This document shows, piece after piece, positions 994 through 33,894 of a stretch of DNA of 64,000 nucleotides. How positions within the stretch are numbered: the stretch's first letter is position 1; every line of letters starts with the position of its first letter. The position numbers and the translations under genes were made by a program. The notes under the pieces were generated by a model. The model saw only the letters and a list, made by a program, of their open reading frames with translations. It was not told the DNA's origin and did no database searches. Origin of the DNA: Nymphaea colorata (taxonomy: Eukaryota > Streptophyta > Magnoliopsida > Nymphaeales > Nymphaeaceae); NCBI RefSeq assembly GCF_008831285.2, contig NC_045146.1, positions 20,949,149 to 21,013,148 on the forward strand. The letters are read 5' to 3'.

Positions 994-1544
994 AAGTTCA
1001 AGAAATAGCAGATCTCCCTAGTGTATACCTATTTTGTTGATGTTGAAAATGTTCGAAAAGAAAATTGTTGGATTTTCAAGCTTTCAAGTGTACATCTATT
1101 TTTTGGTTGAATAAGAGTATGTATTTCTGGAAGAATATTTAGCTTGAACAAATGAGGCTCCAGGTGCATTTAATTTCATACTGGAACAGAAAAAAGATGG
1201 TTGAGACTTTTTCACGATAGGAGAGCCTTATGCAGTTAAAACTTCGTTACGTGGAGACACAAATTCTTTTTTGGTTCCTTGTACATCAAAAATAATTCAA
1301 CAAACTGAATTGGGCTGTTTTACTCTCGTAGCAACTTGTGCTGTTGCTCAGAGGAAAAGTGAATATACAATTTCAGTTCAAAAGTTTCAACTGTTGGAAA
1401 TCCATGTATATATATATCAGTGTATATTTTATTATGTATGTGTCTATACAAAACTGTATAACGCATATGTATATGTATATATATATGTATGATAATGTGT
1501 GTGCGCACACATATAGATATAGGAATTTATTTATATATATAGGA

Positions 1545-1576
<32 letters not shown>

Positions 1577-3708
1577 TGTTATTTTTATTATCAGTCTGTT
1601 CGAGTTTGGCCTTTGACCAAATTTTGACTATGGACTGCTCCAATTGCTCTATTTTGAGCCGTTGGAGCTGGTCCAATAGCTAGCCTTGGCCTCTTTGTTT
1701 TGTGTTTTACAAGGGATTTCTCCTTCGTTGTATTTGTTCCTTGATGGATTGTTATTAATTTTCTTCTTAACAATATTCATGGTTTATGTGCCTTGGTGCA
1801 TTTTTCATGTTAAGAGTGATTTCTCTTGAACTTTATCATTGTGAGCTGTTTTCTTGAAGATATTATCCCTGTCACTTGGACTTGATTTATAAGATTGGTG
1901 GAGGCTTTTACATCAATGGCTCTTACATTATATATGGAAACCCATGCAGACAAGGAACATAATCACGGTTGAAGAGTTTATTTTATACTTACTTCATAGC
2001 CTTATTTGTCGAAATCACTGTCACAAATATCGTTCTTGGAAAAATCTCGGCAAGATTTTTCTTGCTATATTTTGGTGAGGTTGTTCTTCTTGGATAAATC
2101 TTAGGAAAATCTCGAAAATTTTTAAAAAATTAAAAAATAAAAATCATACAAAACCTTAAAAATTCAAAAATATTTTAAAATTCAAAAATATTAAAATCAC
2201 GGGAAAAATTTTGAGAAAAATGGCAGAGATTTTCATTTTTGGCGAGATTTTCCAAATCTTGCGATTTTTCCTATTTTTTTTGTTTTATTTTATTTTCTTG
2301 TAAATATCGAAAAAATTTTGAAAATCTCGCGACATCTTTGAGTCGACACTGGCCCGAATGCCCATTTCGAGCTTTTTAATCATACACCATTATTATAGAT
2401 AGTGTTTTCTTTTAGGGCCATTTTACTTGAAATTTTATGTTGACCCTTTGCTAGAGCTTCATTCTGTTGCAATAAAGTTTTTTAGTAAACAGGAAATAAG
2501 ATGACATATCTCTCCTTGAAGCTTATCAAAAACAGATGAGAGTGAAAACAAGGGAGTGCTTTGGTCAGAGGAATACAGGGCAATAATAGTTCTATACTAA
2601 GTGTTCTTCACAGATCCACTTGTCTGAACATTTTTGGTGCACTTGAGGTATGATAGTGTTGCATATAAACTTAAGGAAATTATAAAACAACAGTTATGAG
2701 GATTGACTCGGATTCTATTTTTATTTTTTTTTTCGGCTAACTTTTTTGACATTCCGCTTATTTTTTGGATCCCACCTGACTTTGGGGTAAAAGTAAAAAT
2801 TTGGTTACCTGAATCCATTGAGGAGTTTTCAAGGGTCAGATTATGTTGGATGGGATCGTTTTCTTGTCCTTGGCTCCTCGCATGCTAAAAGCTGTTGGGT
2901 ACAGAATATTGGATTTGGATGGAGATCGTCCATCCATTTCCACATTTTTTTCGAGAGTCTCAGACATCAACTGAGTTCAAAGTTCAAACCAGTCCTTCAG
3001 ACGTCAACCGTTCTTCTTCATGGCATGTCACTAGAAACCATCAGAAGGAAGAAGGATTGAGTATTATCTCTTTCCTCAGTATCCTATGGTGTCCTCTCTC
3101 TCTCTAATATATATATATATATATTATGGGCAGAACCTGTCAGTTGAAATGCCGGTCGTGTAAACTGAATGCTGGGCAGTAGTAGATATTGTTGGTTGCA
3201 ACTTCAGTCTAGTGAAATATAACTGAAGCATTATGAAGATGGGTAAGAAAGAAAAGATGCAGATATTGAAAATAAAATATGATGCATAAATTAAGCTCAT
3301 CATCTGAGTATATGAATGTTGTGCGGAAAGGATTTAGTTGTCAGGAATATGTTGGTGGATGAAAAAGACATGAAGAGGATGATGAAGACTGTACAACACC
3401 ACTCAGTGAATGAGACACGAGTAATTCCAGAATAACGTTTTGGGGGATTGGGAGCTAAGGAATCAAGTGTTGCTTTTAACGACAGATAAATTTGATGAAG
3501 CAAAAGAAACTTGATAATATTTAAAGAAAATGCATGTCAACCAATTAGACTTGAAGATATTGATTGCATCGAGATTAGAGGACTAAGGCAAGCAGATGAA
3601 TCTATCTAGCCTTTTGTGCAAAAAATTTGAGGCTGCCAGTGTTAGCCTATGTGTGAGTACATTTATGTATATACGTATATATGTATCACCTCATATATTA
3701 CATATCCA

Positions 3709-3759
<51 letters not shown>

Positions 3760-5051
3760 TCTACATGTATTTGTTTTCTTCTTTATTGTTCTTTGTTCTT
3801 TACTCCTTTTTTATTTTCTCTTCTTTCTCAGCTGTTTGTATTCTAGCAGTTGGAACCATCCAGTCTGTGTGTTGGATTGTGTTTTTTTGCTGTTGAAGGG
3901 ACAGAGCTCTTGTTTAATGAGGCAAAGATCTTGTTTTCAGTCAGAATATCTGTTTATGATGCAAACTAATAAAAAGTGTAGAAAACATAAAGGATTTGTA
4001 GAGGTGTAGGAACCTTGAAGCTGAAGCAAAAAAGCAACAAGCTATTGATTTACTGATAACTATGAGGACTCAGTAGCATTTCACATCGCTCTACCCTACC
4101 ATTCATACGCTCAAAAAAATATTTATTTTGTTGGGTGCAAACACAAATAAAGAATTGAGTTATGGGCTTCCAGTCTGGAGTATAAAAATCCAAAACCAGA
4201 TTGCATTGACAGAATCACAATCACTTGCAGTAAACACATAAAGTAAAATAGGGATAAAGTTATGATTTTATGCAAAATTGACAGCTTTCTTCAGTTCCTA
4301 ATACTAGTTAACCCAAGAGGCAGACTTGTTATGGTCACAGTCACAAATATCTGTAATATTTGAAAATATTATGTTTTACTTTCATAACAGCATAAACGTT
4401 TTTGTAAAGGGAAAATTTCGTGATATGATCAAAATATTGTTCAAAAGTATTTCTTGTGATAAACCACAATATCTTCCATTTTCCTATATAAAATCTTTTT
4501 CAATCTGTTTTTCAGAGTATTTGCAAAAGCTATTCAGAAATTTAACGATACATTTTTAAGAAAATTAGTAGAGAAGAACTTATTTAATAATTTTTTGTTC
4601 TCATTTTTTTTTATATAACTTTGAATTCTCAAGGTTTTCCTGAAAAACAACTTTGCAGAAAAAAAATACCTGACACGAACCTTGCCAGTAAAACCCAAAA
4701 ACTTTATATATTTTTTATATTGTCATGGTTAAGGGAAAGATACGTTCTGAAAATCCACTTTGACAAGGACAACTGAAATTTGATGAAAAAGAGGACTTTG
4801 AAGACAATTCATTCCTTTAAGAAGGCTCTTGTGCGTTCCAATTTCTGTTCAAGCAGGTGCTTCCCACCATTCAGAGTGGGAATCGGTTGACCTGAACTTG
4901 ACTTACTTTTGCATATTTTAAGTAGCACCTTCACCCAAATGTGGCTCCATCATTATGCCTAGGCAACATAGGTATGGACAAAAAGTCCAAAGTGATACAG
5001 GTCTAGGTTATTCACCTGTCAATCCAAATATGAAGGTAGAACAAATGTATG
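994..5051. other. gene-poor AT-rich stretch with microsatellites
   Basis: No coding region is supported here. There are (TA)n tracts near 1545-1576, 3108-3124 and 3711-3756, and a duplicated 20-bp motif around 1524-1556. An LTR-like remnant lies near 1658-1690. Around 2090-2340 there is a run of short imperfect repeats rich in AAAATTT and AAATCTCG words. CHLD exons expected downstream of the minus-strand exon at 10499 were looked for here and not found. Confidence 0.6.
1658..1690. repeat. LTR-like remnant related to LTR-1
   Basis: The block reading GCCGTTGGAGCTGGTCCAAT then AGCTAG closely matches the second half of the palindrome in the 475-bp LTR (5315-5342), with about two differences, and is followed by a similar TTTACAA word. 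No full LTR or target duplication is seen, so it may be a decayed solo LTR or a shared motif of a related family. Confidence 0.4.
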
Positions 5052-5526
5052 TGTAAATCAGGCCTGATCTTGAGAATACAAATGCTTCAAGAGATACACT
5101 CTTGAAGATCCCAACAACTTCAATAGGTAATACACAACCAAGCCTCAAACTTGAGGAGAAGATACCAAATCTATTAATCTCAAGAGAAGAATACACAAGA
5201 GAGGCCTAAAAGCCTTAACCAAACAAGGGACAACAGTCTCATATATATAGTACAATGAAAGGGAGAGAAGAAGGAGGAGTTGGCTGTTGGGCCAGCTCCA
5301 ACGGCTAGAAATCTAGCCGTTGGAAGCTGGTCCAACAGCTAGTTCCCTTTTACAAAAAGGAAAAGGTAAAAATAGAAAAAGAAAAGAAATAAAAAATACA
5401 TAAAAAAGAAAAGGAAGCAAATAAAATAAAATACATAACACCTATGCATACATAGATATTCATATATACAAATCATATATGAAACATATGTATACTTACA
5501 TAATGTCTAATATTTAAATTCTAACA
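5052..5526 (-). repeat. LTR-1 3' LTR
   Basis: 475 bp, TG...CA ends, and the 3' LTR in element orientation. It contains a near-perfect palindrome at about 5292-5330 (CCAGCTCCAACGGCTAGA, two bases, then its complement with one extra base) that could form a strong hairpin in the transcript. The three differences from the other LTR fall near 5063, 5109 and 5238. Confidence 0.95.
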
Positions 5527-5535
5527 CCCCCCCTC
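5527..5535 (-). other. LTR-1 polypurine tract
   Basis: The minus-strand reading GAGGGGGGG lies directly against the 3' LTR, as expected for the plus-strand primer. Confidence 0.9.
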
Positions 5536-5656
5536 AAACTTACGGTGTGATCACCGAAAGTTTGCCAAGAAGAAACTGAAAACGTGCTGAAGCAAGTGCT
5601 TTGGTGAAGAAATCTCCAAGTTGATATTCGAAAGGGACAAAGGATATATCGATTGT

Positions 5657-7398
5657 TCAGCTAAGATATTCTTCTCTCACATAGTGACAATCCATTTCAA
5701 TATGCTTTGTCCTTTCATGAAAAGTATGATTGCTAGCAATGTAGATGGCACTTTTATTGTCGCAGCAGAGCTTGGTTGCTTCATTTAAGTCAATTCCAAT
5801 GTCCTTCAATAAGCTTTTTAACCACACAATCTCCATGGTGGTGCTGGCTATAGCACGATATTCTGCTTCAGTTGATGATAGAGAGACTTTATTTTGTTTT
5901 TTGCACCTCCACGAAATAAGAGAGTCACCTAGAAAAACACAAAAACCGGTGGTGGAATGCCTGTTATTAGGATCTCCACCCCAATCAGCATCAGTATAGG
6001 CAATCATATTCAAGTTTGATGAGGATGATAGAAAAAGTCTTTTAGTGATTGTGTGTTTGACATATCGAACAATCCTCAATGCGGCTCCCATGTGTACAGA
6101 AGTGGGTCTTTGTTGAAACTGACTTATGACATGTACCGCATGTGATATGTCAGGCCTTGTGATTGATAGATATGTGAGAGCTCCAACCAATTGACGAAAT
6201 GGAGTGGGATTTTCTAGAATTTCTCCATCACCAATCTTCATCTTTACTCCTAAGGCTTCAGGAGTGTCTACCACCTTGTCATCAGTGATACCTGATCTGC
6301 TTATAATGTCATTGGCAAACTTTATTTGTGAGAGTAAGTATCCTCTTCTACTATAAGCTACTTCAATACCAAGAAAATAGGTTAGTTTACCCAAATCAGT
6401 CATTTCAAATTCATTCTTTAGAAAGTCTTTTACCTGCATAATTCCGTTGGCATCATTACCTGTAATAATCATATCATCTACATATAAAAGTAACACAATT
6501 ATACCTATAGCAGTATTTTTAACAAACATAGCAGTGTCAGAATAACATGATTTAAAACCTTGTTTGAACATAACATTGCTAAACATGTCAAACCAAGCTT
6601 TTGGAGCTTGTTTCAAGCCATATAATGCCTTTCTAAGATAAAGAACTTTTCCTTGAGGTAAATCAAGCCCAGGGGGTGAATCCATGTATACCTCTTCATT
6701 TAAGTATCCATTCAAAAAACATTTTTGACATCCAATTGATATATAGACCATTGTTTAATGGAGGCAATGGCAATAAGAGCTCTAACAGAGGTCATACGAG
6801 CAACAGGGGCGAAGGTTTCTTCGTAATCAATCTCATATTCTTGGGCATATCCTTTGGCAACAAGTCTAGCTTTATACCTTTCAAGTGATCCATCACTTCT
6901 AGTCTTGACTTTGTAAACCCACCTACATCTTATTGTCCTTTTCCCTATAGGAAGAGACACAATGTCTCAAGTTTTATTATCTTCAAGGGCTCTAAGTTCA
7001 TTGTTCATTGCTTCAATCCAATGTGGGTTAGTTTTGGCTTCAAGATAGGATGAAGGTTCAACATGAGAGTGAATAGCTAATAAGCAAGCTCTATGTTTTG
7101 GGGAAAAAGACTCATAGGAAACAAATTTTTGAGGTGGATGAGAATCTCTTTGAGATCTCCTAAGAGTAGGTTGAGACTCTTGGATGTTTTGTTGAGACCT
7201 TCTCTTATAAACTATAACTTCTCTTGGTGATCCATCACTTCTTGGTGAAGATCTATCAAAAAGAGTATTCGCAACCTCATTTTGAGCATCATTATGTGAA
7301 GAAGGCAAAACATCATCATCATTATCAACATCATCATCATTTATCCATAAAAAAAAAATAGTCATCTTCATGCTTGGGTTTATTTTCATTAAAGCCAT
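5657..7398 (-). pseudogene. LTR-1 reverse transcriptase and RNase H
   Basis: Three pieces in changing frames. 6967-7398 is the linker between integrase and RT and ends at LEDNKT, where the expected Trp codon is TGA. 6712-6960 carries the RT start (CRWVYKVK, then RLVAKGYAQ). 5657-6751 carries the RT palm with YGLKQAPKAWF and the catalytic YVDDMIITGN, then RNase H with YTDADWGGD and SSTEAEYRA. Between the last two pieces a T-run of six where seven are expected shifts the frame near 6718. The tail after REEYLS has another stop, beyond which the terminal DFFTKAL motif is still readable. Confidence 0.92.
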
Positions 7399-7405
7399 TT
7401 TCTTC

Positions 7406-9352
7406 TTATAAAAATATCACATTTCTTGAAACATACACCTTATCTTTTTCAATATCATAGCATCTATACCCTTTTTGAGTTTCGGAATAGCCAATAAAGA
7501 CACATTGAATAGCCCTAGATGAAAGTTTATCATTTTTGTCATTTAAAATGAAACATTTGCAACCAAAGACTTTGAATCTTTTATAAGTTGGCTCCAAGTT
7601 AAAAAGTTTTTGAAAAGGTGAAATATTTTCTAAAACTTTAGAGGGCATTCTATTAATCAAGTAAATGGATGTTAAAATTGCTTCACCCCAAAAATTTTTT
7701 GGAACATTTTTTGATATAAGAAGAGCTCTTGTTGTTTCAAGAATATGTCTATGTTTTCTTTCGGCGACTCCATTTTGTTGGGGGGTTTTGGGACAAGATT
7801 TTTGGTGTATAACTCCCTTTTCTTTTAGGAATTCTTCAAATTCATTGGAAATGAATTCTCCCCCGGAATCACTTCTAAAAATTTTAAGGTTTGCATCAAA
7901 TTGAGTTTTGATCATGTTGTAAAAGCTTTTAAAATTCATAAAGACTTCCGATTTGCATTTAAGAAAGTAAACCCAAGCATATCGAGAGTAATCATCCACA
8001 AAAATGACATAATAAAGCAAACCACCTTTAGACATAATAGGAGCGGGACCCCATACATCCGAATGCACTAATTCAAAAGGTGCTTTTGCAACAAAATTTC
8101 TATTTCCAAAAGGTAAAGCCTTAATTTTGGCTTTAATACAATCATCACAAGAGATCATTTCTTTACATTTCTCTTCCAAAAAAGGGATACAAGACATTTT
8201 TCCTAAACTTGAATGCCCAAGTCTTTGATGCCAAACTTGAATGTCACTCTTCTTGACTATATTGCAAGTAGGGTTGGAAAGATCCAAATAGTCAACATAG
8301 TAGAGATCATTTTTCCTAAAACCTTCCCCAATCGTCTTCTTGGAAAGATGGTCCTGTATCAAAAATTTATTTTGTGAGAAGACAATATCACATCCATGAT
8401 TTGTTATTTGAGAAACCGACAAGAGATTTAAGTTAAGTTTGGGAATAAATCTAACTTTTGGTATTTTAAAAACTTTTGAATTAAAATTTTGATCAATATT
8501 CCCAACACATTTGATTTCAAGAGGAGTTCCATCGGCGGTTTTAACAAATGGGCACGATTCTTCCTTAGTGCATTCGGTAAGCAAAGAATTACAAGGGGTC
8601 ATATGAAATGAAGTTCCGGAATCAAGAATCCAAGAGTACTTACTTGATGATGTAGATGCCACGGTTGCTCCGGAGATTGGAGAAGTCCCTCCTCCTTTGA
8701 AAAGCGGTTGAAGAGCATCAATAAGCTTTGGTTGGAGGGCACTTACAAGTTTGTCTAGGTCAAATTGATTGCTTTCTTCATACATTGTCCCAGCCACACT
8801 TGTCTTTTTATCAAATCTCCTCAATTTAGGACATCTAAGTTTGGTATGTCCTTCTTCTTGACAATGGAAACATATAATCTTCTTGTTGCCATTATTGCTA
8901 TGCTCATAGTTTCGATTAAAGTGAGGAGGCCTATAAGTTCTCATATGAGCACCGGGTCTTGAGGTAGCAAGAACACTTTCACTCTTGTCTTTTGAAAAAT
9001 TGAGTCTATTCTCCTCCATTTGAAGTTCCGCTATGGCTTCGTTCATAGATGGCACTTTATGCCTATGGAGCAAGGAAGTTTTGACTCCATCATATTCCGA
9101 TCTAAGACCAAGAATGAATTTATAAAATTTCTCCCTTTGGATTTGTTTTTCTCTAACTCCAATGTCTCTTGGATCATACCATTCGGGTTCAAATAGAGCA
9201 AGTTCGTCCCATAATTGCTCCATTTCTCCAACATATTCTTTAATGGACTTGTCTCCTTGTTGGAGACTTGCAATCTTCATTTGAAGATTGCACATGTAGG
9301 CCACATCCTTCATGGTGGGTTTTCTTGAGGAATTCCCAAGTTTCATGAGCAA
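7406..9352 (-). pseudogene. LTR-1 gag C-terminus, protease and integrase
   Basis: One 648-codon open stretch. It holds the rest of gag, a CCHC zinc knuckle (CFHCQEEGHTKLRC, about residue 160), the aspartic protease motif LDSGTSFHM (about 245), the pre-integrase HQRLGH block (about 375), and the integrase core. The catalytic acidic residues are seen in HSDVWGP, RSDSGGEF and NGVAERKH. The stretch ends at the conserved VYVSRNVIF block with a TAA stop, then continues in frame for about 22 codons before a slip in a T-run near 7350. Integrase itself looks intact, but it lies downstream of the gag frameshift. Confidence 0.92.
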
Positions 9353-9671
9353 AATTATGTTTTGCTATTTGGCTCATGGTTGTAGTATCAACACAAGCAA
9401 TAATCCAAGTGATAATCTTGTGGTGTCCTATCTTCCACTCTTCCCATTTTCTCTCATATTCATTCATAGCCTTGTCTTTTTCAACTCCATCTAGTTCTTG
9501 AGCTTTACCATCTATGGTCTTTGTGAGGACTAATTGAGGTTCACTTTTTGACCCATCAACGAGTCCCCATAGGCCTTTACTTCTAATAAAATGTTCCATA
9601 GTTTTTGCCCAAGAAACATAATTTGATGAAGTTAATTTGGGAAGAGGTGTAGAGGAAGTTCTTTCATCCAT
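9300..9671 (-). pseudogene. LTR-1 gag, N-terminal part
   Basis: The likely gag start is MDERTSSTPLPKL at 9671, just inside the primer site. It continues with the copia gag signature NYVSWAKTMEHFIRSKGLW. The frame is lost near 9300-9315. There the continuing gag text (KDVAYMCNLQMKIASLQQG) moves to another frame, which marks a small indel. Gag forms the virus-like particle in the cytoplasm. The ORF extends upstream to 9728, but that part overlaps the leader and is not needed. Confidence 0.85.
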
Positions 9672-9956
9672 AATGTGTACCTTGTAAAAGAGACGTTGAG
9701 GTAGTGCTAGGATGAAAAACAGCCACACAAAAAAGAAGCTTTCGACGCGTCAAAGACTGCCACAATCTTCACCACCAAGGGAGCTTTATCCCGTCACAAA
9801 TATCACCAAAAGAGGCCAGCAAAATAACAGCACCTTCTTGTGTCAAATTTCAGCCAACAATATATCGAACACTTGGAGTGCTTCACAGCTCCAAGGAAAG
9901 AGTAATAATTGGATCTTCCAAGCTTGAAAGACAGCAACACAAAGAGCCAAAACCTG

Positions 9957-9968
9957 GCTCTGATACCA
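9957..9968 (-). other. LTR-1 primer binding site
   Basis: The minus-strand reading TGGTATCAGAGC starts immediately after the LTR end and is complementary to the 3' end of initiator tRNA-Met, the usual primer for plant copia elements. Confidence 0.93.
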
Positions 9969-10443
9969 TGTAAATCAGGTCTGATCTTGAGAATACAAAT
10001 GCTTCAAGAGATACACTCTTGAAGACCCCAACAACTTCAATAGGTAATACACAACCAAGCCTCAAACTTGAGGAGAAGATACCAAATCTATTAATCTCAA
10101 GAGAAGAATACACAAGAGAGGCCTAAAAGCCTTAACCAAACAAGGGACAACAGTCCCATATATATAGTACAATGAAAGGGAGAGAAGAAGGAGGAGTTGG
10201 CTGTTGGGCCAGCTCCAACGGCTAGAAATCTAGCCGTTGGAAGCTGGTCCAACAGCTAGTTCCCTTTTACAAAAAGGAAAAGGTAAAAATAGAAAAAGAA
10301 AAGAAATAAAAAATACATAAAAAAGAAAAGGAAGCAAATAAAATAAAATACATAACACCTATGCATACATAGATATTCATATATACAAATCATATATGAA
10401 ACATATGTATACTTACATAATGTCTAATATTTAAATTCTAACA
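9969..10443 (-). repeat. LTR-1 5' LTR
   Basis: 475 bp, same ends and palindrome as its partner. In element orientation this is the promoter-bearing 5' LTR. It is followed on its right by the target duplication GTATG. Confidence 0.95.
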
Positions 10444-10599
10444 GTATGAACAATATAATAGTGAATGTTTTTCAAATAACAGAGGTTTCAAAACGAACCT
10501 GACAACCACCTCTTAGAGCCTCGATAACGAGATACTTCATTTGGTCCCGACTGACGGTCACATCTTTTAAATACGCTCTGGCCACTTATCTGTTCTGCA

Positions 10600-12624
10600 A
10601 GAAATCATGTGAAGAATAAGCCTTAGAGCAGCAAATTTGCAAAATAAGAAGTTTACTTCCTTTTTTCAGAAATAAATTGAATAATACACATCATAAGAAA
10701 AACTTATCATAAAAAAAAGAGGAAAGATAAATCAGAATGTCAAGCAACCAACAGCCTGCTGCTACGCATAACAAAATAGTATGCGGACTATCATGAGGAC
10801 TTTCAAAAAGAACGGGTAACAGTTTTTCAGAAATTTCACACTACTGAAGAGACAGCACGTTTCCAGTCATTGTGATCTAAAACTAAAGAAAAGCAGGCAA
10901 ATAAAAACATCAAAGTGAATAACATCCTCTGACGGTCTGACCTGCAAAATCAGACAATGTTGTAGCTCTCATTGAAGGATTCGTGGTGAGATATAGACAA
11001 AGAATTTACTAACTTACTAGGAAAACTAATGACTTGAATATTTTTCTCTATATTTGACCTGAAGAGTTGGTCAATAACCATATTTTTCAGTTAATATAAT
11101 CCAGTAACTTTGAATTTCCTTGCAAAGCAATCAAAGGTCATCCTTAATTTCAGAACATTGAAGGTTTAGCTAATGCAGGAATGAAGCTGCATATTAGTTA
11201 TGTTTTTCAAGTTTACCAAGAAGCTCTTGGGTGACCTTGTATACCTAAATAAATTTATCTTGATTCATGCACTGCAGGATAAGTCACTGCAAAATCAGAA
11301 ACAAGACAACCTCATTACATATAACCAAAATAACAAAAAGAATAGCAGGTCTCCATTATGTAATGCTGCTATATGGTAATGAAAGAGCCAATCAAGAACT
11401 TGACCGACTTTGACCATATATTGTCCTTGTCCATGGAGTCATGGACATTAATGCCAGTAATACAGTAACAAACAATTAAATTTATGAAGAGAAATGAACA
11501 GATGGGTATAAGTAACAAGTTTTAAACCTCTTTGGCTAGATCTTGCTAGACTTGTTTCTGTATTGTCTAAAGACTAAAGCTAAACTGACCTAATGTGATT
11601 GGGGTTCTAGAGTAACAAAAAATCAAAGGAACCCATGCAGGTGGTACAAATTGCATCAGGTGTAAATGCAGTCATCTTAGGTAGCACAATTACAAATTTA
11701 GAACCCAAAAACAAAGTGGTCTCATTCAGGCTGGTCAAGCGTAACTGAAAATTTCAGACCTATATAGGTTCAAAATCACATTCAACAAAAGAGATGGCAA
11801 TTGATAATTTGACACATTCCAGAACAGAAAAAGTGAACATAAAAAAGTCAGTATTCTTATGGGTCTTTTCTGGACATGGTTTATGTTCTTTTGATAAGGT
11901 TATGTCAACAAACACTATGCTTATAACAACTTATCAGAATCACAAACTTAAAGCAAAAACATGCCAAAATCTGGCACATTTTTTCATAATTCTGTTGTGA
12001 CAGTTTAGCTGTTGTAAGTTGTAACTGATTTGAGATTCAGATGACATCAGCTCTAAAAGTATTCTATATTGGGATTAAATGGGTTTGTTTCAAGGAAGTT
12101 CACATATTAACTCATTTGCATACAGAATGTTCAGATAGTCCAAGTCAGTTCAGCCATAAATTTTACAGAATTCATTGGCTCAGATACTAAAACAGGTTTC
12201 AGAAATGTGTCCAGTATAAAACATATATAGATATGCATAAGCTTCGGGTTTGGGTCAGTGACCAGTACACTTACAAATTTTGCATGGTCAAAACAAGTTT
12301 AAGATTTAGAACCACCATGATCACAGGTCTGTCGATATCAAGTTAGTTGGACATCTATTTGGTTACGGTAGCAGAAGCATAGGTTTCAAAGGCCTTTTCA
12401 AATATATGTCATCACAGCACTCTATCATTCAACAAGGGACAACCATACAAATATTAAAACATTTTCACCATGAAATTCACAGATATGATAAATGACTGCT
12501 CAAAACAATTAGGAAATGGACAGACCATTCTTTCGTGTAATCTATCTTTGGAAAGAACTATATTTCCATTATCATTTATCAACTACTCCAGTAAAGGAAA
12601 AGAATAATTATCTCCAGATTTTAC
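10600..12624. other. long CHLD intron, no other gene seen
   Basis: This lies between two recognised CHLD exons on the minus strand. It is AT-rich with no long ORF of recognisable content. The 68-residue plus-strand ORF at 11794-12000 has no family signature. Confidence 0.55.
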
Positions 12625-12925
12625 CTATGTTTTTGCAAACTCTGTTTCTTCCTGAACCATTTGGAAGACACCCTCACTGGACTCCTGAAATTTGGTTGCT
12701 ACATCGACAGCTGCAATACGATCATCAAAACTCATTGGAAGATATGCACTGAAAAAGTAAAAAGGGAAATTTTAGATTTTCTAGTGTTTTTGGCAAGCAT
12801 ATGAAGAATTTTTTTGTTAATTTGAGCAGCCAACATGGCACTTCAAAGAGTGAATGATAAACAAATAATGCAAGATAAGACTATTAAGAGATTGACTGAT
12901 AACTTTTGAGGAAATGACTGCAAAC

Positions 12926-13242
12926 CTTAAATTGATTGCAATTCTGTCCAGTAAATGTTCTCGTACAGCACCTTCCTCTGGGTTGTAGGTAGCAATTAGA
13001 AGTGGTTTGCATGGACGGCGGAAACTTATACCTTCACGTTCCACAATATTAACTTCTTCTGTCAACACATTCAACAGCAAATTGCTAATCCCTTCATCCA
13101 ATAGATTTATCTCATCAACATATAGGACACCTCTGTGAGCTTCAGCGAGTAGTCCTGGCTGGAAAACAGTCGTTCCTGTCTTAACAGATTCTTCAACATC
13201 AACAGAACCAATAAGTCTGTCTTCTGTTACACCCAGCGGGAT
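12926..13242 (-). pseudogene. CHLD: CHLD AAA+ core exon, well preserved
   Basis: A 317-bp exon with clean acceptor and donor. It encodes the Walker B region (VLYVDEIN) and the sensor-like ATYNPEEG block with no frame damage. Its good state shows that decay of the locus is recent. Confidence 0.9.
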
Positions 13243-14318
13243 CTAGGAAAACATACTTTAAGTCAGGTATTCAGAAAGATAGGAAGGAAAAAAAAAAGTT
13301 TCTGTTCAGCTGCTACCTGAATGAAAGGAGATCTAACTACTTGAGTTTTAACGTTGCCATCAGCATCATACTGTAGTCTGCTGGCTAAACCATCTTCCCA
13401 CCTAGAGAATGCAAATATTATGACAAAAAAGAAGAAAAGCTAACTCCGCAGGTTGATCAACCACACCTTCGCATTTAAGTGTGTTGGGCCTTGCGTTGAT
13501 GCCCATGCGTCCAAGCAACGGAGCTAACTGGACTAGGTGAAAGAGGATGGCTGATGTCATTGGCATAGAATTGGCATCTAGAGATCAATTTGTGCAGTCA
13601 TGTAATGAGCATGTCATTGGCATTTTCAAGAGGGCGAACCAACTTTCAGACAAAAATGTGTGGTTCGCATGATGTTCGAGCATGTAAACTGCCCGTTAGG
13701 CCAAATGCAGAAGTGAACCGAACATAACAAACAGTAACTATTACACGAAAAGGTATGTCTCTCAGTAAATTCCACAGGTACCGTGTATGCCTTAACGACG
13801 ACTGCTGACAAGAGTTCCATCTAAAAATAAACAATGTCACTGAATTCGAGGCTTCCTGCTACCAGAGTCCGGGATCAAATTTTCATATTGATAATAACGG
13901 CTTCGAAATTACATTTACAGTATTTAATAAATGTATGGGACGGTAATATTCCTATGCAGCTCAACTCCGAACTCCAGCCAGCATTAAAAGTTAGAGGAAC
14001 TTGAGCAGAACTATGCGATAGCAGCTCAAGTTACTAAGCTTACTCTTCAGGGCACAGTGGGTCCGCGTTGGATATGGAACCGACGACCACCTCGATGGGC
14101 GGGAGTATGGCGTGCAACCCTCTGGCCATCACTGTCTTCGCCGTCTCTCGCTTCCCAGAGATTGCAATTCCGCCAATTTCGCGATCGATAGCACCAAGCA
14201 GCAAAGCGGTCTTTATCACATCCTGCCGGCGATCATTGACGGAAGGAAAACATCCATCAGTTCACATATAGAGAAACTCGACACCAGAGGAGGCAGGGAA
14301 AGAAGAGTAAGGAAAGAG

Positions 14319-14735
14319 TCTAAAAGAGAGAAAAAGGAGACTAAGTTTTTTACGTGGTTCGGTGAAGCACACCTACGTCCACGAGAGAGGCTCTTCCACC
14401 GTATGTGGTGTTGAGGTTCATTCTACTACTATTTATAATGTTACACCGTGTGAGATGTACATATACATTTCATGTTGCTAATGTTTTGGGAATGACTTTC
14501 CCTATTGAGTCGTTGCATTCTTGGATCCTCATTTGTAACCGTGGCCTGATTCCCTTCATCGTCATCTTCTTTAGTAACTGCCATAATCTGTAATCTGGCT
14601 GATTTATCATTTTGTGTAAGGGTGGCATGATTTCTTTCATCATTGCTAACCGTGGCCTGATTTCCTTTGCCTTGTTGTTTAGTAACTGACATAATGGCAG
14701 CCTGGTTGATTTGTGATTTTGTGTAACTGGCGCGG
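14319..14735 (-). repeat. LTR-2 left (3') LTR, border approximate
   Basis: The first 150 bases align with the right LTR. The rest holds the internal tandem units. No clear polypurine tract is visible beside it. The pol ORF runs into this region as far as 14679. Confidence 0.6.
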
Positions 14736-15765
14736 GACGTTGGTCAGACCCAGTTTGTCTCGAAGTGAATTAAAGAGGGTGCTAGACAATGCCTTGGTGA
14801 AGATATCAGCAAGTTGTTGAGAGGAAGACACAAATTGCGTGGTAAGTTGTCCAAGCGCGATCTTTTCACGAAGGAAATGATAATCCAACTCAACATGTTT
14901 CATTCGAGAGTGAAAAACTGGTTTGATAGAAACCTGTAGGGCTGACATATTATCACAATATAAGATTGGAGCATGGGCTAGATATATTCCAAGATCTTTC
15001 AATATATATTGAATCCATGTAAGTTCGGCGGCGGCAGAGGCCATAGATCTATATTCTGCTTCTGTCGTAGAACGAGCGACAGTAGGTTGTTTCTTAGTTG
15101 TCCAAGAGATACAATTTGTACCGATGAAAGTGCAATATCCAGTAGTTGAGCGTCGAGTATCGTGACATCCTACCCAGTCTGAATCAGAGAAGGCATGAAG
15201 TCGAAAATCAGGCTGGGGAGAGAGAATACAACCATCAGAATTAGTTTCGTGAATGTAGCGGAGTATATGTTTAACAAGCTGGAAATGGCTATTCTTCGGT
15301 GTCTGCATATACTGATTGACATAATTAACACTGAATGAGATATCGGGCCTGGTGAATGTTAAATATTGTAACCCCCCAACTAGACTGCGAAACAGTGTTG
15401 GATCTGAAAAAGGTCCATCATCAAGAGGTGATTGATAATGTTGAACTAAAGGGGTGATGGCTGGTTTACAGCTAAGCAATTTTGCACGTTCGAGAAGACT
15501 AAAGGCGTAACGCCGTTGATTTAAGAACAGTCCAGATTTGGTTTTAACAACTTCCACACCTAAGAAGTGATGAAGATATCCAAGATCTTTCATGGCGAAC
15601 TCAATACTCAACTCTTTGATAATCTGTTGAAGGAGGATACTATTGCTTCCCGTTAGTATGATGTCGTCAACATAACGTCAACATAAAGAAGGAGAAAGAT
15701 AGTACCTTGAGCTTCTTGATAAACAAACAAAGAAGAGTCTGAGATGCTGGCGTAAAAGCCTTTGG
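14679..15765 (-). pseudogene. LTR-2 RT palm and RNase H
   Basis: After the 15790 frameshift the RT text (SFLLTKGFYASISDSSLFVY) continues in a second frame to LLLYVD. There an 11-bp tandem duplication (TTATGTTGACG twice, minus strand, around 15662-15690) interrupts the YVDD catalytic motif and shifts the frame again. From 15611 a 310-codon open stretch carries FAMKDLGYLHHFLGVEVV and RNase H with FSDSDWVGC and STTEAEYRS, ending past LADIFTKAL. Confidence 0.88.
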
Positions 15766-18700
15766 TTAACAAGAAGGAGCCAAACCGATCGTAGGAGCCT
15801 GGCGAAGTCCGTACAAAGGTCGGTGAAGTCGACAGACATGTGTGGGTTTGGAAGGATCAACAAATCCTGGTGGCTGTTCAATGAATACAGTTTGATCCAA
15901 GTTGCCATGGAGAAACCCATTTTTGACATCGAGCTGCTTAATGTCCCACTTGTTGGTCAAGGCAATAGTAAGAACAATGCGAATAGTAGCCGGTTTTATG
16001 ACGGGAGAGAAAGTTTCCATGAAGTCAACACCAGGAATTTGGTTGAACCCGCGAGCTACCAGTCGTGCCTTCAAGCGTTCCAAGGTGCCATCGCTTTTTA
16101 ATTTGGTTTTAAAAACCCAACGCGTGCTTACCACATTCATGTTTGGTTGTCGAGGAACTAGAGTCCAAGTTTGACAGTGGTGAAGTGCGTGTAATTCTTC
16201 TTTCATCGCCGCGACCCAGCCATCATGCAGGAGAGCATCTTTCACTGTTTTGGGTTCTAAAGGAATACTCATAGTGAGAAAGTAGCGAGGATTAGGCTTA
16301 ACGACACCAACCTTTTCTCGAGTAATCATGGCATGAGAGTTTGATGATGGAGGCGGAACCTGAGTTTCTGCGGCATGGAGATCGAGAGATGGTTCAGCTT
16401 GAGGCGGAAGCTCGTCACTAGACGATGGTGAGACGGCTGCAATAGGGGATAGCACAGCTTGTTGGATCATGGAGTATTCGTGAGGAGAAGATGCAGTAGG
16501 GGTAGCTAGTAACATTTCTGGAGTTGGGATCTCTTCATGATGCATACACGGGGAGGAGCCAACAACAAGCTGTCTATCATCCACATTCTGAGTATTATTA
16601 GGGGGCTCGGTCCAATCCTTGAATGTTGTAGGTTGCAGCTGATGTTCAACTTTGGAAAACAATATGTCAGGCTTGTGATACGGAAAGTTAGCTTCATCAA
16701 AAACCACATGTCGTGAAGTATATATACAACCAGTAGGAGGGTATAAGCAGCGATAGCCTTTGTGAATGGAACTATATCCCAAGAAGACACAAGGTAATGA
16801 TCTTGGTTCAAATTTATGCTTGGCATAATCTTTCAAGTAAGGGAAGCAACGACTTCCAAAAATACGAAGGCATGTATAATCTGGTTTCTTCTCAAAAACA
16901 CATTCAAATGGTGATTTCATTTGCAAGGTGGGTGTAGGCAACCGATTGATTAACCATGCAGCAATCAAGAAAGCATCGACCCAATATTTCATGGGTATAT
17001 GGGCATGGAAGAGCATGGTGATGCCCAACTCAACTATTGACCGATGACGCCGTTCAGCCAGTCCGTTTTGTCGTGGCGTTTTGGGGCATGATTTAATATG
17101 TCGGATGCCATGATTTCTCAAATAATCTTCTAAGATCCGACTATTAAATTCACCTCCTTCATCGGTTTGAAAAATTTTTAGTTTTGTTTCAAATTGACGT
17201 TCAACTAGTTTGTGGAAATCCATAAACACTTGACAAAGTTCAGATTTGTGTCGAAGAGGATATAGCCAAACAAATCTTATAGCTTCATCAACAAATATAG
17301 CATAAAACTGAAATTTTTGTGTAGACGTGATAGGGGCTGGTCCCCATAAGTCACAATGAACACGTTCAAGAAAAGTTTGAGAATGCTCTTCTACAGGAAG
17401 AAATGGAAGCCGACACATTTTGGCAAGCTGACAACTAGAACAAACTGACAGTCTTGATTGAGGTCTACTCACCTCAATATTATTTTTGCTAGCAAAAAAA
17501 TCAACTATCCGATGATGAGGATGACCCAAACGTTGATACCACGTTTCTTTATTGACTGACCAAAACCTGCTGGAAAAGAAGACTGCATGCTGCCGATCCT
17601 TGAAGTTTTCTTGAAATGCATAAAGATCTCCGGTTCTACTGCCCGAAGCTATTAGACGATTGTCCCTCTTGTCCTTAACAGAAAAACTATCAGCAGAAAA
17701 TTGAAAAACATATGGATATTCAGATGTTAACTGACTAACAGAGACTAAATTCTTTTTAATTTGAGGCACCACTAGAACATTATTGAGGGGTAGGCATCTT
17801 TTTCCGTTTTGAATATCAGCATTTCCAATATGGGTGATACTTAACTTTTCACCATTTCCCACCATAATTTGATCATTACCATGATATTCAGTATAGTTTG
17901 TAAGGTTACCTGGATCAAACGTTATATGTGTGGACACCCCCGTATCAGGAAACCATTTGTCATCATGTCCATCAGCTATCTTCATTGCTGCCAAAGCGTG
18001 TGGTACTTCCTGCACTTGGAAAGCGTGATTGAATCGATGCCAACAATTAGCAGCATTGTGATTCATTTTGTGGCAGATTTGACATTGAACACTTTTGTTC
18101 TTGTTTTGGTTATCTCCACGTCCACCATTCTTGTTTTGATTGAGCTGAAATTGTCGTCCTTCTTGGGCCGACTGAAAATGTCATCCTCCTTGGGCTGACT
18201 GAAAAACTCCTCCTTGGGCTGCTTGTGTGAATTCTCGCCCCTTTGAGTTAAAGAACTGACTTCTATTTGATTTAAACTTGGAATTTGAATATTTCTTGCT
18301 GTAAAAAGCAACCTGCTGACTAGTATCCTCATGATACATACTCCGCATAGTTTCATGACTCTGGAGTAAAGCTACCACATCTATGTAAGACGGTGTTGGG
18401 GGTTTCATCATAGTGGTGGTAAAGGACTCGTATTCCTGTCCCAATCCACTAAGAAGCCAGAAGACTTTGGAATGGTCTTCTATAGGCTTGCCTATAGCAG
18501 CAAGCTCATCACATATCTTCTTGAACCCACAAATATAATCAGCAATAGACAGATTTCTTTTCTTATAAGTCTGAAGCTTTTGCATAAGCAAGTGTTCCCT
18601 CTCTTGACATTTATGAGAGAAATGTGTCATAAGAGTATGCCATACCTCTTTAGATGTTTGAAGTCAAATGACGGTACCCATGACTTCTTCTGCAAGAGTG

Positions 18701-18981
18701 CCGGTGATCCATCCACGCAATAGTCGATCTGATTTTTGCCATGCTTGATAGATTGGATTCACTCGTTCCTCCACCGTACCGTCTTCTTTGGTGTGCTGGA
18801 CCGTAGGTTCGGGCGCAGCTGTCTCTCCTTCAATGAACTCAATCATATCTTGGCTCTCAATGAGTCCAAGCAATTGGGTTTTCCATATCAAAAAGTTGGT
18901 CTGGTTCAATTTAATGGTCACAAAGTTTGCAACGTTTAAGTTGTAAAGGTATGGGTAAGGAGAAGAGAAGATGGAAGCCAT
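15766..18981 (-). pseudogene. LTR-2 gag, protease, integrase and RT start
   Basis: A single frame runs from MASIFSSPYPYLYNLNVANF (18981) to 15766, interrupted by only two TGA codons (near 18669 and 18180). Both are consistent with CGA-to-TGA changes. It holds UBN2-type gag (NLSIADYICGFKKICDELAA), the CCHC knuckle CQICHKMNHNAANC (about 18080), a protease DTG triad (WFPDTGVSTHITF), HQRLGH-like YQRLGHPHH, an integrase core (HCDLWGPAP, QTDEGGEF, NGLAERRH), and the RT N-terminus through LYGLRQAP. A small deletion after RQAP destroys the frame at about 15790. Confidence 0.9.
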
Positions 18982-18985
18982 TGAG

Positions 18986-18988
<3 letters not shown>

Positions 18989-19074
<86 letters not shown>
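18989..19074. repeat. (TA)n microsatellite in LTR-2 leader
   Basis: About 86 bp of uninterrupted TA, between the gag start and the primer site. It probably expanded after insertion. Confidence 0.95.
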
Positions 19075-19079
<5 letters not shown>

Positions 19080-19115
19080 AAACTCATGGCACAAGACCCT
19101 AATGCTCTGATACCA

Positions 19116-19334
19116 TGTAAAAGAGAGAAAAAGGAGACAAGTTTTTTACGTGGTTCGGTGAATCCACCGTGTGTGGTGGAGAGGTTCATTCTACTATTTA
19201 TAATGTTACACTTGAGGCTTCTCCTTCATTATCATGATTGCTCTTGTGAGCTGTACATATACATTTCATGAACTGGCGCAACAATCTTCATTCTAGCTGT
19301 TTGATGATATTGATTATATTCCTTTACCATTTCA
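19116..19334 (-). repeat. LTR-2 right (5') LTR
   Basis: About 219 bp, starting TGTAAAAGAG right after the primer site and ending TTCA before the candidate duplication AAGAG. It is shorter than the left copy because of deletions. Confidence 0.65.
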
Positions 19335-19347
19335 AAGAGTTGAGCAC

Positions 19348-19638
19348 CTGGCCGACGACGGCGGCGAGAGGAAAGAATTGTCAGCCATAAAGAGTGGCAT
19401 CGAGGCCTTCGTTTGGTGGCAAGGCCGCTCCATTGGGAGACGCTTGGACAGTGGACTCGGTGGAAACGGCGCGAATGCAGGACGACCGAGCACCCCATCT
19501 GAGAGGCCTGGACGGAGGGAGGATGAGGGCATTGGTGCCGCGGAGGAAGGCCGAGGTGGACGAGGACGAAGGACTCTGGTGGTGGCGGTGGTGCTGAAGG
19601 AAGCGACTGAGGGAGAGGGCGGACGGAGCGGAAGCCAT
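19348..19638 (-). pseudogene. CHLD: CHLD exon 1: transit peptide and N-terminus
   Basis: The ATG at 19638 opens a Ser/Pro/Arg-rich, acid-poor leader (MASAPSALSLSRFLQHHRHH) typical of a chloroplast transit peptide of about 50 residues. It then reads NEGLDATLYG, TGA (19381-19383), and QFFPLAAVVGQ before a GT donor at 19347. The family has YGRQFFPLAAVVGQ here, so CGA to TGA is the simplest cause of the stop. It removes everything after residue 85. Confidence 0.88.
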
Positions 19639-19946
19639 GCTCCTGCTGTCAGAGAGAAGCGGGTTCGCTTTGCGCGCGAGCAGACGCGCGTCACAGCTAC
19701 AATGTTCCTTTTATTGCCCATACTTTACTAAAAATACAGAATTACTTTTATTTTTTATCTTATGTTTTAAAAAAGAAATTGTTAATGCAATCGATGAGAT
19801 TGGGTGGCGCGTTGTAGCTACCTCTTTAGTTTAGATTCCTCTAAAGTGCTATCTTAATGATATCAATGAATAATGTTCTTCCTGATATTAATATCTTAAT
19901 GATATTAACGAATAATCTTGTTCTTGATATTAAGGAGATCATTAAG

Positions 19947-20661
19947 ATGGCCATGCTGTACACTTCATACCTGCACTGCATCTAAGCGACTTAGGTTATG
20001 GACTCTCCTGCCATGAACTCCTTTTGACAAATGAAAAAGGGGAAATTTTAAATATTATGGCAATACTCAATCTAAAAGCCACCATATTAATTGTTGTATA
20101 ATTATATATCAACACTTTTAGAACTTATCTTCTTAAGTGTCATAAGTTCATATCCATTTCTCAAATTTATTGTTATAAAATATTAAACTTTTCATCAAAA
20201 TAGAAGTCAAAAGTGTCCCATGGACGTGAGTCAATTTGGAAAAAAGAAGGCATGATGGATTCTCAAAACCACACCACCGCAAAGAAATTTCACATAGAGA
20301 CTGTGATGAAGAATAAAACCTTAGTACATGAAGACATGAAAAGTGGAAGGAATCTCCCTGTTCAAATTTCCACTGTAAGATGCAAAATTTTTTTGGCGAC
20401 AAGGTACAAGATATTTGAAAGATGGAAGAAATCCATGACCATAATCTTGCCTGCCATACAACGTAAATGGTCAAACATCGAAGGGGTTAATGCAATCTCC
20501 GTAACATGACAAGTTCTCTATCAACAGTGAACTATCCAAATTTGAAGCTAATTTACGCGCTTCTAGCTTTTCGGATTTCAGCTGGCTTAGCCAATTTTCT
20601 ATTCCCAACCTAATGAAGCCATATCTAACCCCCTATATTTTTACGTTTTTTACCCAATGCA
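19947..20661 (+). repeat. 715-bp inverted repeat, left arm
   Basis: This arm is the reverse complement of 21707-22421. It has the same length, and the one mismatch I saw is at about 20580 (GCTGGC versus TCTGGC in arm sense). Outer ends read ATGGCCATGCTGTACACTTC. The arm has no recognised coding. ORFs of 108 and 98 codons appear in both arms only because the arms mirror each other. It could be the long terminal repeat of a non-autonomous DNA transposon or a recent inverted duplication. Confidence 0.93.
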
Positions 20662-21706
20662 ATTGGAGCTTAACTCTTTAGTTGTAACTGAAGCACTTAG
20701 TGGCGAACAGATTTGATTACGTGGGCTCTTCTTTATTGAACCCGAATGTTGCCAAATATGCTGCCGTTGTTGTTGAAGAATTTTGGATCTGGTTCATGCA
20801 GGAACCGTGTCCAGTTTCAATCTAAAATGAGGACTCTGTAGTATATTTGTTTGGTCTGATCAAATTTTATTTGTTTGAAGCGTTAACAAGACAAATCGAT
20901 CCATTGGATCCAAACTGATCTTAACTAGGGCCCTGGTGATCTGTATAGGACTGAACGTTGGGTTTTGTGATGGAGGGGTTTGATTGTTACTGTTTATTTT
21001 ACTTTCCTTGATGCGTACTTTGAACTAGATTTTCATGTGACTGGCCATCTCTCTCTCTCTCTCTCTGCCCTGGTGTTTTTTTATTGTAGTGGCTATTAAA
21101 CGAAATATGAGGATGGGAGGCGGCGATTTTTTTGATTTCTGGCGATCCTTTGCGGCGTTTGCTTTCATTTGGTTATCGACTTTGTGTGTGTTTAGGTCGT
21201 TATCCTTGGAACTAGTTTCTTGATTATGGGAAATAAAGACGAGGTAATTGTATGAAATAGTCAAGGACGGTGTGTGGTTGGTAAAATAGTTTGGGATGCG
21301 TTCATTCGCAATTGTTTGGCTTCGTCAATATTGGTTTTGGAGGTGTCACTCAGAGCTGAATAATGAGGGTGCGGTTGGTTGCAGGAAGCAACAGGGATTG
21401 AATTTCTTTTGGTGTAACTGTCATGGTTGTTTACGGATGATGACGAATAAGGCAATGTGGTTGGGAGTTCTGTGAAATACCTGACGGGTAAGCTGAGGAT
21501 GAATGGCATCGTTAGACATTTTATTATGAAGTAAGACCGTGAATAAATACCTGGATTTCAGTATGGCATTGGAGCTCTGTTAATAATCTTTACGTCTATT
21601 CTTGATTTGGTGGGAATATAAAGTGTCAACGTTATACGCATAAAAGGGAAAGTCCTATTTGTGTCCTGTGTTGATTTAGAGATGCACTTGCTTGTATTCA
21701 AGCAAA
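20662..21706. other. 1045-bp spacer of the inverted repeat
   Basis: Single-copy within the window, with a short (CT)n tract at about 21049-21066. No recognisable protein motif. Transcription through spacer and arms would give a transcript able to fold into a 715-bp duplex. Confidence 0.7.
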
Positions 21707-22421
21707 TGCATTGGGTAAAAAACGTAAAAATATAGGGGGTTAGATATGGCTTCATTAGGTTGGGAATAGAAAATTGGCTAAGCCAGATGAAATCCGAAAA
21801 GCTAGAAGCGCGTAAATTAGCTTCAAATTTGGATAGTTCACTGTTGATAGAGAACTTGTCATGTTACGGAGATTGCATTAACCCCTTCGATGTTTGACCA
21901 TTTACGTTGTATGGCAGGCAAGATTATGGTCATGGATTTCTTCCATCTTTCAAATATCTTGTACCTTGTCGCCAAAAAAATTTTGCATCTTACAGTGGAA
22001 ATTTGAACAGGGAGATTCCTTCCACTTTTCATGTCTTCATGTACTAAGGTTTTATTCTTCATCACAGTCTCTATGTGAAATTTCTTTGCGGTGGTGTGGT
22101 TTTGAGAATCCATCATGCCTTCTTTTTTCCAAATTGACTCACGTCCATGGGACACTTTTGACTTCTATTTTGATGAAAAGTTTAATATTTTATAACAATA
22201 AATTTGAGAAATGGATATGAACTTATGACACTTAAGAAGATAAGTTCTAAAAGTGTTGATATATAATTATACAACAATTAATATGGTGGCTTTTAGATTG
22301 AGTATTGCCATAATATTTAAAATTTCCCCTTTTTCATTTGTCAAAAGGAGTTCATGGCAGGAGAGTCCATAACCTAAGTCGCTTAGATGCAGTGCAGGTA
22401 TGAAGTGTACAGCATGGCCAT
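21707..22421 (-). repeat. 715-bp inverted repeat, right arm
   Basis: Partner of the left arm. The palindrome ATGGCCAT occurs at both outer edges (19947-19954, 22414-22421). It can be read either as the tip of the arms or as an 8-bp target duplication, because it is its own reverse complement. Confidence 0.93.
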
Positions 22422-23733: not shown

Positions 23734-24535
23734 AAAGCATTGTTCATGGATGAGATCTCATGCCAAAATTTTTTTCTTCACGGGAGATGTTAGTAGGACC
23801 TTCCAAAGCATTGTTCATGGATGAGATCTCAACTGGACTTGACAGCTCCACCACCTTCCAGATTGTGAAGTTCATTGGGCAATTTGTTCGTGTCATGGAT
23901 GGAACCATGCTGATGTCTCTTTTGCAACCTGCACCTGAGACATACAATCTATTCGTTGATATAGTTTTGCTTTCGGAGGGATACGTTGTCTACCTAGGTG
24001 ATCGAGAACATGTGCTTGAATTCTTTGAGTCCATGGGCTTCAAGTGCCCTGAAAGGAAAGGGGTTGCAGACTTCCTGCAAGAGGTAACATCGAAAAAGGA
24101 CCAGGACAATACTGGAGTGATAAAGATGCACCCCACCGCTATGTCACAGCTAAAGAGTTCTCAGAAGCCTGCAGTTATTAACGAGGTGGCCAACAACTAG
24201 CAGCTGATCTTAGGATCCCATATGACAAAACAAAGTCTCACCCGGCAGCATTAGAAACAAAGAAGTACACAATGAGTAACTGGGACCTATTCAAGGCCTG
24301 TTTTTCAAGAGAATGGTTACTCACGAAGAGGAACTCTTTTCTTTACATATTCAAGACCACCCAGATCACTATCATGTCTTTGATCACCATGACCCTATTC
24401 TTGAGGATTAAGATGAAGCATGAAACTATTGCAGATGGTGGAAAGTACTTTGGAGCTCTATTCTTTAGTTTGATTAATGTGATGTTCAATGGAATGACAG
24501 AGTTGGCAATGACTGTTATCCGGCTTCCTGTATAT
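23734..24535 (+). pseudogene. ABCG/PDR transporter fragment
   Basis: PDR-type ABCG proteins are full-size ATP-driven plasma membrane exporters. This piece encodes the first-NBD Walker B and following region ([20 protein letters not shown]), the PDR-typical [20 protein letters not shown], and [20 protein letters not shown]. After a frame change it reads [10 protein letters not shown], then MSNWDLFKACFSREWLLTKR and KYFGALFFSLINVMFNGMTE, the first membrane block. A one-base deletion at about 24105 shifts the frame and a TAA follows near 24180. The N-terminal Walker A part and everything after RLPV are absent. A 27-bp segment (23734-23760) is repeated at 23805-23831. It is a dead, rearranged gene fragment. 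Confidence 0.9.
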
Positions 24536-24553
24536 AGTAATATTTCTTTTAAT

Positions 24554-24681
24554 ACATTGTGTGGTGGATTATGTCGAAGTTGCTGCTGCTCCGAGCCTTT
24601 AGTGTCTGGGCTCCTGCTTCCAACTTTAAAATAAAGCAGCCCTCGTTGTTGATTAACTTCTCTCCTATGCAGACCGCGTTG
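24554..24681 (-). pseudogene. 128-bp copy of DUF620 exon 3
   Basis: The reverse complement matches 35436-35563, inside exon 3 of the DUF620 gene in this window, over all 128 bp with only two differences (both G:C to A:T in the copy). It starts and stops inside the exon, is joined directly to the broken end of the PDR fragment, and is in the opposite orientation to its source. It is a recent gene-fragment duplication with no function of its own. Confidence 0.95.
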
Positions 24682-28415: not shown

Positions 28416-28556
28416 CAGAATGGTCATGTGTCTTTAAAGCATATTGAGACAAACTATATGATTGCGGATCTGCTTACCAAGGGTTTAACACATAAGGTCT
28501 TTCACGAACATGTTGTTCGTATGAGGGTGTTAGTCTTGGATGATGTGCTGATTTAG
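28416..28556 (+). pseudogene. copia pol C-terminal fragment
   Basis: Reads QNGHVSLKHIETNYMIADLL, then TKGLTHKVFHEHVVRM and a TAG. This is the extreme C-terminus of copia RNase H (usual form IADxLTKGL). The bases after it (28557-28790) may be LTR remnant. It faces the opposite way to the copia debris at 28.8 kb, so it is a separate insertion or an inverted piece. Confidence 0.85.
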
Positions 28557-28804
28557 TGAGAGTTTGTATTTTGTTTGCTCTTATGTATAGAACATATTCA
28601 GTTTTTCTGCAGAATATAGTTTAAAGTTCTTTGGTTTCATTCTGTGTTTGTATTTTTGATCTGCATAAGATTTTAAAGTAGGGCCAGTTGAGAATAGACA
28701 TGTTGTAATTACATTACATGTAATGATCATGTTATACATCCATATCAGATCTATGTCATTGATTGTGTTAACATTTGTGATCATTGAAGGTTTAGCTAAT
28801 TTTA

Positions 28805-33175: not shown

Positions 33176-33894
33176 AGAGAGTTGGCATATGTATTTAGCT
33201 CATGGTTTGTGCTACTCCATTTAATTACCCAAGTTTATTATATGTGTATAATTATGCAACTCACTAAACCATGTCATTTAGAAGCGGAGTGAGGATTTTT
33301 TTTAGGCGGGCTAAATGGTTCGCAGGTCGGGCCAAGAGAAATGACGGATCAAACCAAACTAAAAAAAAATTGATTTTTTCAATATAATTATTTTTTCTTG
33401 CACCCATGGGACCATGGCCCAGGCGGGCCTCCCACTCCCTCCGCCCCTGACGTCATTTATACATGCAAAAGTCGAAACTAACTATATTGTCCCACTCCAA
33501 ACCAAAAAATATATGCAACAAAAGCCCCTATACAAGCCAAGGGAAAAACAAATTGATATATATTTATGAATAGCGATATTTTATTACATTTTTATACATT
33601 TATCATTATAAATATTATGTTTATATGTTAAATTATTATGTGTTATTTATTTATTGTGTTATAATCGGGTTTCTCCCTGTAACTTGGAAATGTGGACACG
33701 TTTAAATGACTCCCTAAAACCATGGAACCGATCCACTTGACTCTCCACCCATTCAATCTCATAGGACCTTAAAATAAGGGGAGCCGCATGAGTACCAAGA
33801 AGTGTCCTCTTCCCTTGCCTTTCCATCTTGGAAGGCGAAAAACAGAGGGGAGAGGAAGGTGGTGGTGTTGCCGTCGACGGTGCGGGACGTTCCG

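Follow-up and report, generated by a model that had tools for sequence, protein, structure and literature searches.

Mg-chelatase is reported to have one isoform per subunit in monocots, with CHLD single in most dicots and present twice in soybean (PMC6018531). Among heterotrophic plants, two mycoheterotrophic orchids are reported to conserve most of the genes of chlorophyll synthesis without the full set, and a third to have all of them (PMC8220222); the holoparasite Aeginetia is described as retaining part of the pathway (PMC7206726), and the transcriptome of the mycoheterotroph Monotropa hypopitys has no Mg-chelatase transcript (PMC5123295). Redundant copies left by genome doubling are another point of comparison; fractionating maize homeologues are described as typically carrying short intra-exon deletions (PMC2893956), and a survey presents pseudogenes as rare or transient after doubling (PMC7775554). 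Among the titles and abstract openings listed in a literature search, none concerns a CHLD pseudogene family.

We analysed a window of 64,000 nucleotides (C9:20949149-21013148) containing a broken CHLD locus, here called copy A, and compared it with the remainder of the assembly. Copy A resembles an unprocessed, or duplicated, pseudogene in that its introns and 5' flank were copied, it contains two stops and a frame-shifting 2-base deletion, it is truncated through the absence of exons 7-15, and a parent gene with all exons, complete-looking when read block by block, is found elsewhere in the genome, on contig C2. It is unlike a plain duplicated pseudogene in having company: at least four partial copies, each cut differently, are spread over about 1.6 Mb of a single contig, and three of them carry one missense change in common. 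With the maize homeologues (PMC2893956) it shares short deletions and the partial loss of a redundant gene, but it is a small segmental copy with a break inside an intron and not a homeologous chromosome.

Methods

The genome-wide search covered an assembly of 407.8 Mb in 783 contigs, with matches accepted at E<=0.001. The ChlD profile used on the window combined 58 cyanobacterial ChlD with two provisional plant sequences, rice and Arabidopsis. The cyanobacterial set derives from 80 fetched loci, the best 80 of 451 relatives, from which we kept those with a frame of >500 residues and the expected motif and dropped 22. Splice borders of exons 7-15 of the C2 gene were chosen by script; junctions 10/11, 11/12 and 12/13, if not others too, are visibly misplaced by a few residues. 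The label CHLI-like on contig C1 was assigned from 39% identity to CHLD together with a Mg_chelatase match. Dating assumed between 6.5e-9 and 1.3e-8 substitutions per site and year. Below, copy C is the CHLD gene on C2 (minus strand), and copies B, D and E are further partial copies on C9.

Structure and lesions of copy A

The six CHLD exons of copy A lie between 19638 and 10499 on the minus strand of the window, with AG/GT borders and a single frame through exon 5; exons 1-5 joined amount to 996 nt, in which codon 86 is TGA and the final codon TAG. Exon 1 (19348..19638) keeps its ATG and has the TGA at 19381-19383 in place of Arg86, for which copy C has CGC and copy B CGA. Exon 2 (14044..14222) carries Ala98Val (14217-14219) and a change of the P-loop Gly123 to Glu, written GAG (14145-14147). 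No disabling change is seen in exon 3 (13317..13401). Exon 4 (12926..13242) carries Gly248Glu, common to copies B and D, and His261Arg, found in copy A only; exon 5 (12625..12748) carries Asp293Tyr and ends in TAG for Gln332. The start of exon 6 (10499..10589) is two bases short relative to copies C and E and has a neighbouring substitution, while the other possible acceptor leads to TAA; this exon also carries Glu338Ala. A preliminary description made from the window alone had reported both stops, the P-loop change and the broken start of exon 6, each of which is present as described, and to these the comparison adds the substitutions at residues 98, 248, 261, 293 and 338. Its view of Arg86 as invariant does not hold outside plants, the commonest residue at this codon in cyanobacterial ChlD being Ser (15/58).

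The ChlD profile, with its two provisional plant sequences, recovers exons 2-6 in the window, pieces of 29-32 residues included, scores the last 10-11 residues of exon 1 at only E=0.2-1.7, and finds no exon 7-15 in the window; the absence of the C-terminal half, remarked upon earlier, is thus borne out here, and extends to C9, where no match passes residue 354. Exon 4 alone scores slightly better against the cobaltochelatase family of NCBIfam (TIGR02442, 3.5e-49) than against BchD-ChlD (TIGR02031, 1.2e-45), and we call the gene CHLD because the full-length paralogue on C2 shows it to be so. A functional CHLD has an open frame from the AAA+ module to the integrin-I domain; copy A lacks the C-terminal exons and its frame is broken. 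Neither Rfam nor a tRNA scan matched anything in the window.

Several of the missense changes fall on positions conserved among cyanobacterial ChlD. At 115 sites invariant in 58/58 cyanobacterial ChlD, there are five departures in the window only (G123E, G248E, H261R, D293Y, E338A), none in rice only and one in Arabidopsis only, the plant sequences being the provisional ones. Expressed as a share of the unique changes in exons 2-6, 5/16 in the window fall on such sites against 1/31 in the provisional rice and Arabidopsis sequences together (Fisher p=0.013). The contrast is much weaker across 136 sites kept in >=57/58 cyanobacterial ChlD when changes shared among plants are also counted: the window then departs 17 times, provisional rice 13 times and provisional Arabidopsis 11 times. 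Overall amino-acid change on the window branch is not raised, at 16 unique changes against 14 and 17 in the provisional rice and Arabidopsis sequences, which is expected with recent decay, yet lends it no independent support.

A complete-looking CHLD gene elsewhere in the genome

The genome search gave 29 matches, of which 14 lie on C2, 14 on C9 and one, CHLI-like, on C1. Those on C2 together cover query residues 79-754 with no gap, exon 1 having been read separately, while all 14 on C9 end at or before residue 354; every match past that residue is on C2, save the CHLI-like match (query 73-386). On C2, exons 1-6 lie between 26622338 and 26617971 and form 1080 nt free of stops, and exons 7-15 (26607888-26601119) contribute 1206 nt, open to a terminal stop, giving about 761 residues over all 15 exons. 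The gene carries the expected residue at every lesion site of copy A and is complete-looking, its exon blocks being open one by one in what is a predicted gene structure. Four stop-free CHLH-like matches are found on C13, and the CHLI-like sequence is an open frame of 351 codons.

These results bear directly on the two readings offered by the preliminary description, in which the locus was either a decayed second copy or a sign that the plant, being non-photosynthetic, no longer needed CHLD for chlorophyll. Losses of the latter kind do occur, as the transcriptome of Monotropa illustrates (PMC5123295), and the incomplete but mostly retained pathway summarised for heterotrophic orchids (PMC8220222) means that CHLD, CHLH and CHLI alone do not prove photosynthesis. 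A plant on this course would nevertheless be recognised by a genome without intact CHLD, CHLH or CHLI, and here one genome has all the exons of a CHLD together with CHLH-like and CHLI-like sequences free of stops; we therefore consider it extremely unlikely that CHLD is decaying for want of chlorophyll. Since CHLD on C2 looks complete, the window locus gives no reason to infer lost chlorophyll synthesis, and it is the decayed second copy that agrees with the wider search which the description had itself proposed. The whole-genome check thereby overturns a reading based on one window and removes a false lead, the loss of an essential chlorophyll gene. It also indicates that a survey relying on the N-terminal domain to count CHLD genes would arrive at too high a number in this plant.

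Extent of the copied block and later insertions

Copy A is collinear with copy C in exons, introns and 5' flank, in six blocks of 79.8-94.2% identity. Collinearity runs from 19947 in the window down to 1376, interrupted by two copia elements, by sequence that copy C alone has (about 5.4 kb and 0.2 kb), and by smaller gaps. At the upstream end the copied 5' flank (19639..19947, minus strand) reaches C2:26622690, its upstream part being 80% identical; at the other end the remainder of intron 6 (1376..5051, minus strand) corresponds to C2:26608768-26609348 and 26614778-26617920. The former C2 interval is the last block, and lies inside intron 6; about 0.9 kb separates it from exon 7 (26607888). 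As both introns and 5' flank were copied, copy A arose from genomic DNA, as had been proposed. An early reading, that the 3' half had been deleted, was replaced on account of the end of C2 similarity within intron 6; exons 7-15 are absent and, given where the similarity stops, were probably never copied, loss after copying being a possible alternative.

Both copia elements noticed in and beside the locus are confirmed, and both were inserted later than the copying. That in intron 6 (5052..10443, minus strand) has LTRs at 5052-5526 and 9969-10443 and a target duplication GTATG, at a site which is empty in copy C; its LTRs are identical at 472/475 positions, and the three differences correspond to about 0.24 million years at the assumed rate of 1.3e-8. 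The other, in intron 1 (about 14319..19334, minus strand), has a target duplication AAGAG, and neither copy B nor copy C has an insertion at its site.

An inverted repeat (19947-20665 and 21703-22421) lies some 0.3 kb upstream of where CHLD starts; its 719-base arms are 99.7% identical, and no target duplication was seen by eye.

Partial copies on C9 and their age

Partial 5' copies of CHLD on C9 number at least four (A, B, D and E), a lower bound, and each is cut differently. Copy B (C9:21036693-21039059) lies on the opposite strand to copy A and retains exons 1-5, its exon 1 being longer by one base; copy D (C9, about 21721680-21722641) retains exons 2-4, and copy E (C9:20118018-20121962) exon 6 and a portion of exon 2. 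B and D share a deletion that removes the end of exon 2 and continues into intron 2. Copies A, B and D carry G248E and copy C does not, copy E being without that exon, while R86*, A98V, G123E, H261R and D293Y are confined to copy A among the copies that hold the site. Copies A and C differ at 180/4156 aligned bases (4.3%, exons and introns together) and copies A and B at 57/2333 (2.4%), from which ages computed by hand with the assumed rates are about 1.7-3.4 million years for A-C and 0.9-1.9 million years for A-B.

Errors of assembly or base calling could in principle make an intact CHLD look broken. The recurrence of G248E at three separate places, the spread of the differences from copy C over exons and introns, and the open frames of neighbouring genes (histone H4, DUF620) all speak against such an error, and we give this explanation almost no credence.

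Copy A is very probably an unprocessed, truncated and decayed segmental duplicate of the C2 gene. A genomic block reaching from just upstream of CHLD to the inside of intron 6 would have been copied from C2 to C9, a direction that rests on the completeness of the C2 gene, and exons 7-15 probably never came along. A single founding C9 copy may then have gained G248E before being re-copied and whittled into at least four pieces; without selection, copy A would have acquired its stops, missense changes, 2-base deletion and both copia insertions by ordinary mutation. None of the C9 copies is likely to make a functional protein. Copy A is in these respects a young, truncated pseudogene of the ordinary duplicate kind, and belongs to a small local family that provides a tidy, datable case of local copying and decay. 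That the repeated 5'-half copies, some of them inverted, yield antisense or hairpin transcripts which tune the single complete CHLD is an idea to which we attach very little probability.

Two segments of the window recur beside other copies, 27058-28807 near B, D and E and 33459-34163 near B and E, which points to local duplication on a wider scale in C9.

Mutational spectrum

The lesions had been described as all of the C-to-T class where legible, a class said to fit deamination of methylated cytosines. Read against copy C, and against B and D where present, R86*, A98V, G123E, Q332* and the shared G248E do belong to this class, but H261R (A>G), D293Y (G>T), E338A (A>C) and the 2-base deletion with its neighbouring substitution do not. 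At sites where B and C agree, 20 changes are specific to copy A, ten of them C>T class, including six in CpG; copy B has 22 specific changes, eight of the C>T class. The proposed fit with deamination holds in part, the C>T-class half of the copy-specific changes and their CpG share favouring it, and several disabling lesions of other classes counting against it. A special C-to-T process was rejected, as the other ten copy-specific changes are of other classes and the CpG observed/expected ratio is 1.0 in exon 1, 1.06 in exon 2 and 1.12 in exon 6, though it is 0.27-0.52 in exons 3-5. CpG deamination contributes to the lesions of copy A and is neither their sole nor a special cause.

Neighbouring genes

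The C9 neighbourhood also contains broken pieces of SUFD, a PDR-like transporter and DUF620. The 3' exons of a SUFD copy (plastid Fe-S assembly) occupy 1-993 on the plus strand, with a frame-shifting deletion near 904, and further SUFD exons lie to the left of the window, one with a reported TGA. A longer copy (C6:8953486-8957891) matches more of the family (positions 8-232), and is not called intact, one of its three matches having a reported TGA.

Broken SUFD beside broken CHLD was at one time read as a homeologous block, an idea dropped once the SUFD peptides gave no match within 60 kb of the C2 gene. That copy A is a homeologue undergoing fractionation after whole-genome duplication would fit the short intra-exon deletions outlined for maize (PMC2893956). 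The C2 stretch common to the window is, however, only about 14 kb, apart from short scattered matches; PDR-like and DUF620 peptides of the window likewise lack a match in the 60 kb around C2 CHLD, the longer SUFD copy is on C6, and the C9 pieces are several and rearranged. Pseudogenes are, moreover, outlined as rare or transient after genome doubling (PMC7775554). We regard the homeologue explanation as very unlikely, and retain that of a segmental duplicate.

An ABC-transporter remnant (23754-24550, plus strand) is continued by 128 bases of an inverted DUF620 exon copy, the two together occupying 23754-24681; the copy is 98% identical to the exon at 35436-35563 and is possibly filler DNA from break repair. 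Further right in the window, histone H4, DUF620, two LEA_2, one NUDIX and one RING gene have open frames. We take the remnant to be PDR-type and the histone to be H4, Pfam giving only ABC2_membrane-type and weak histone-fold matches. A partial DUF620 copy with an internal stop lies to the left of the window (C9:20929415-20929882), and inside the window a direct repeat of about 0.7 kb (36733-37431 and 38049-38754) has 76% identity between its two units.
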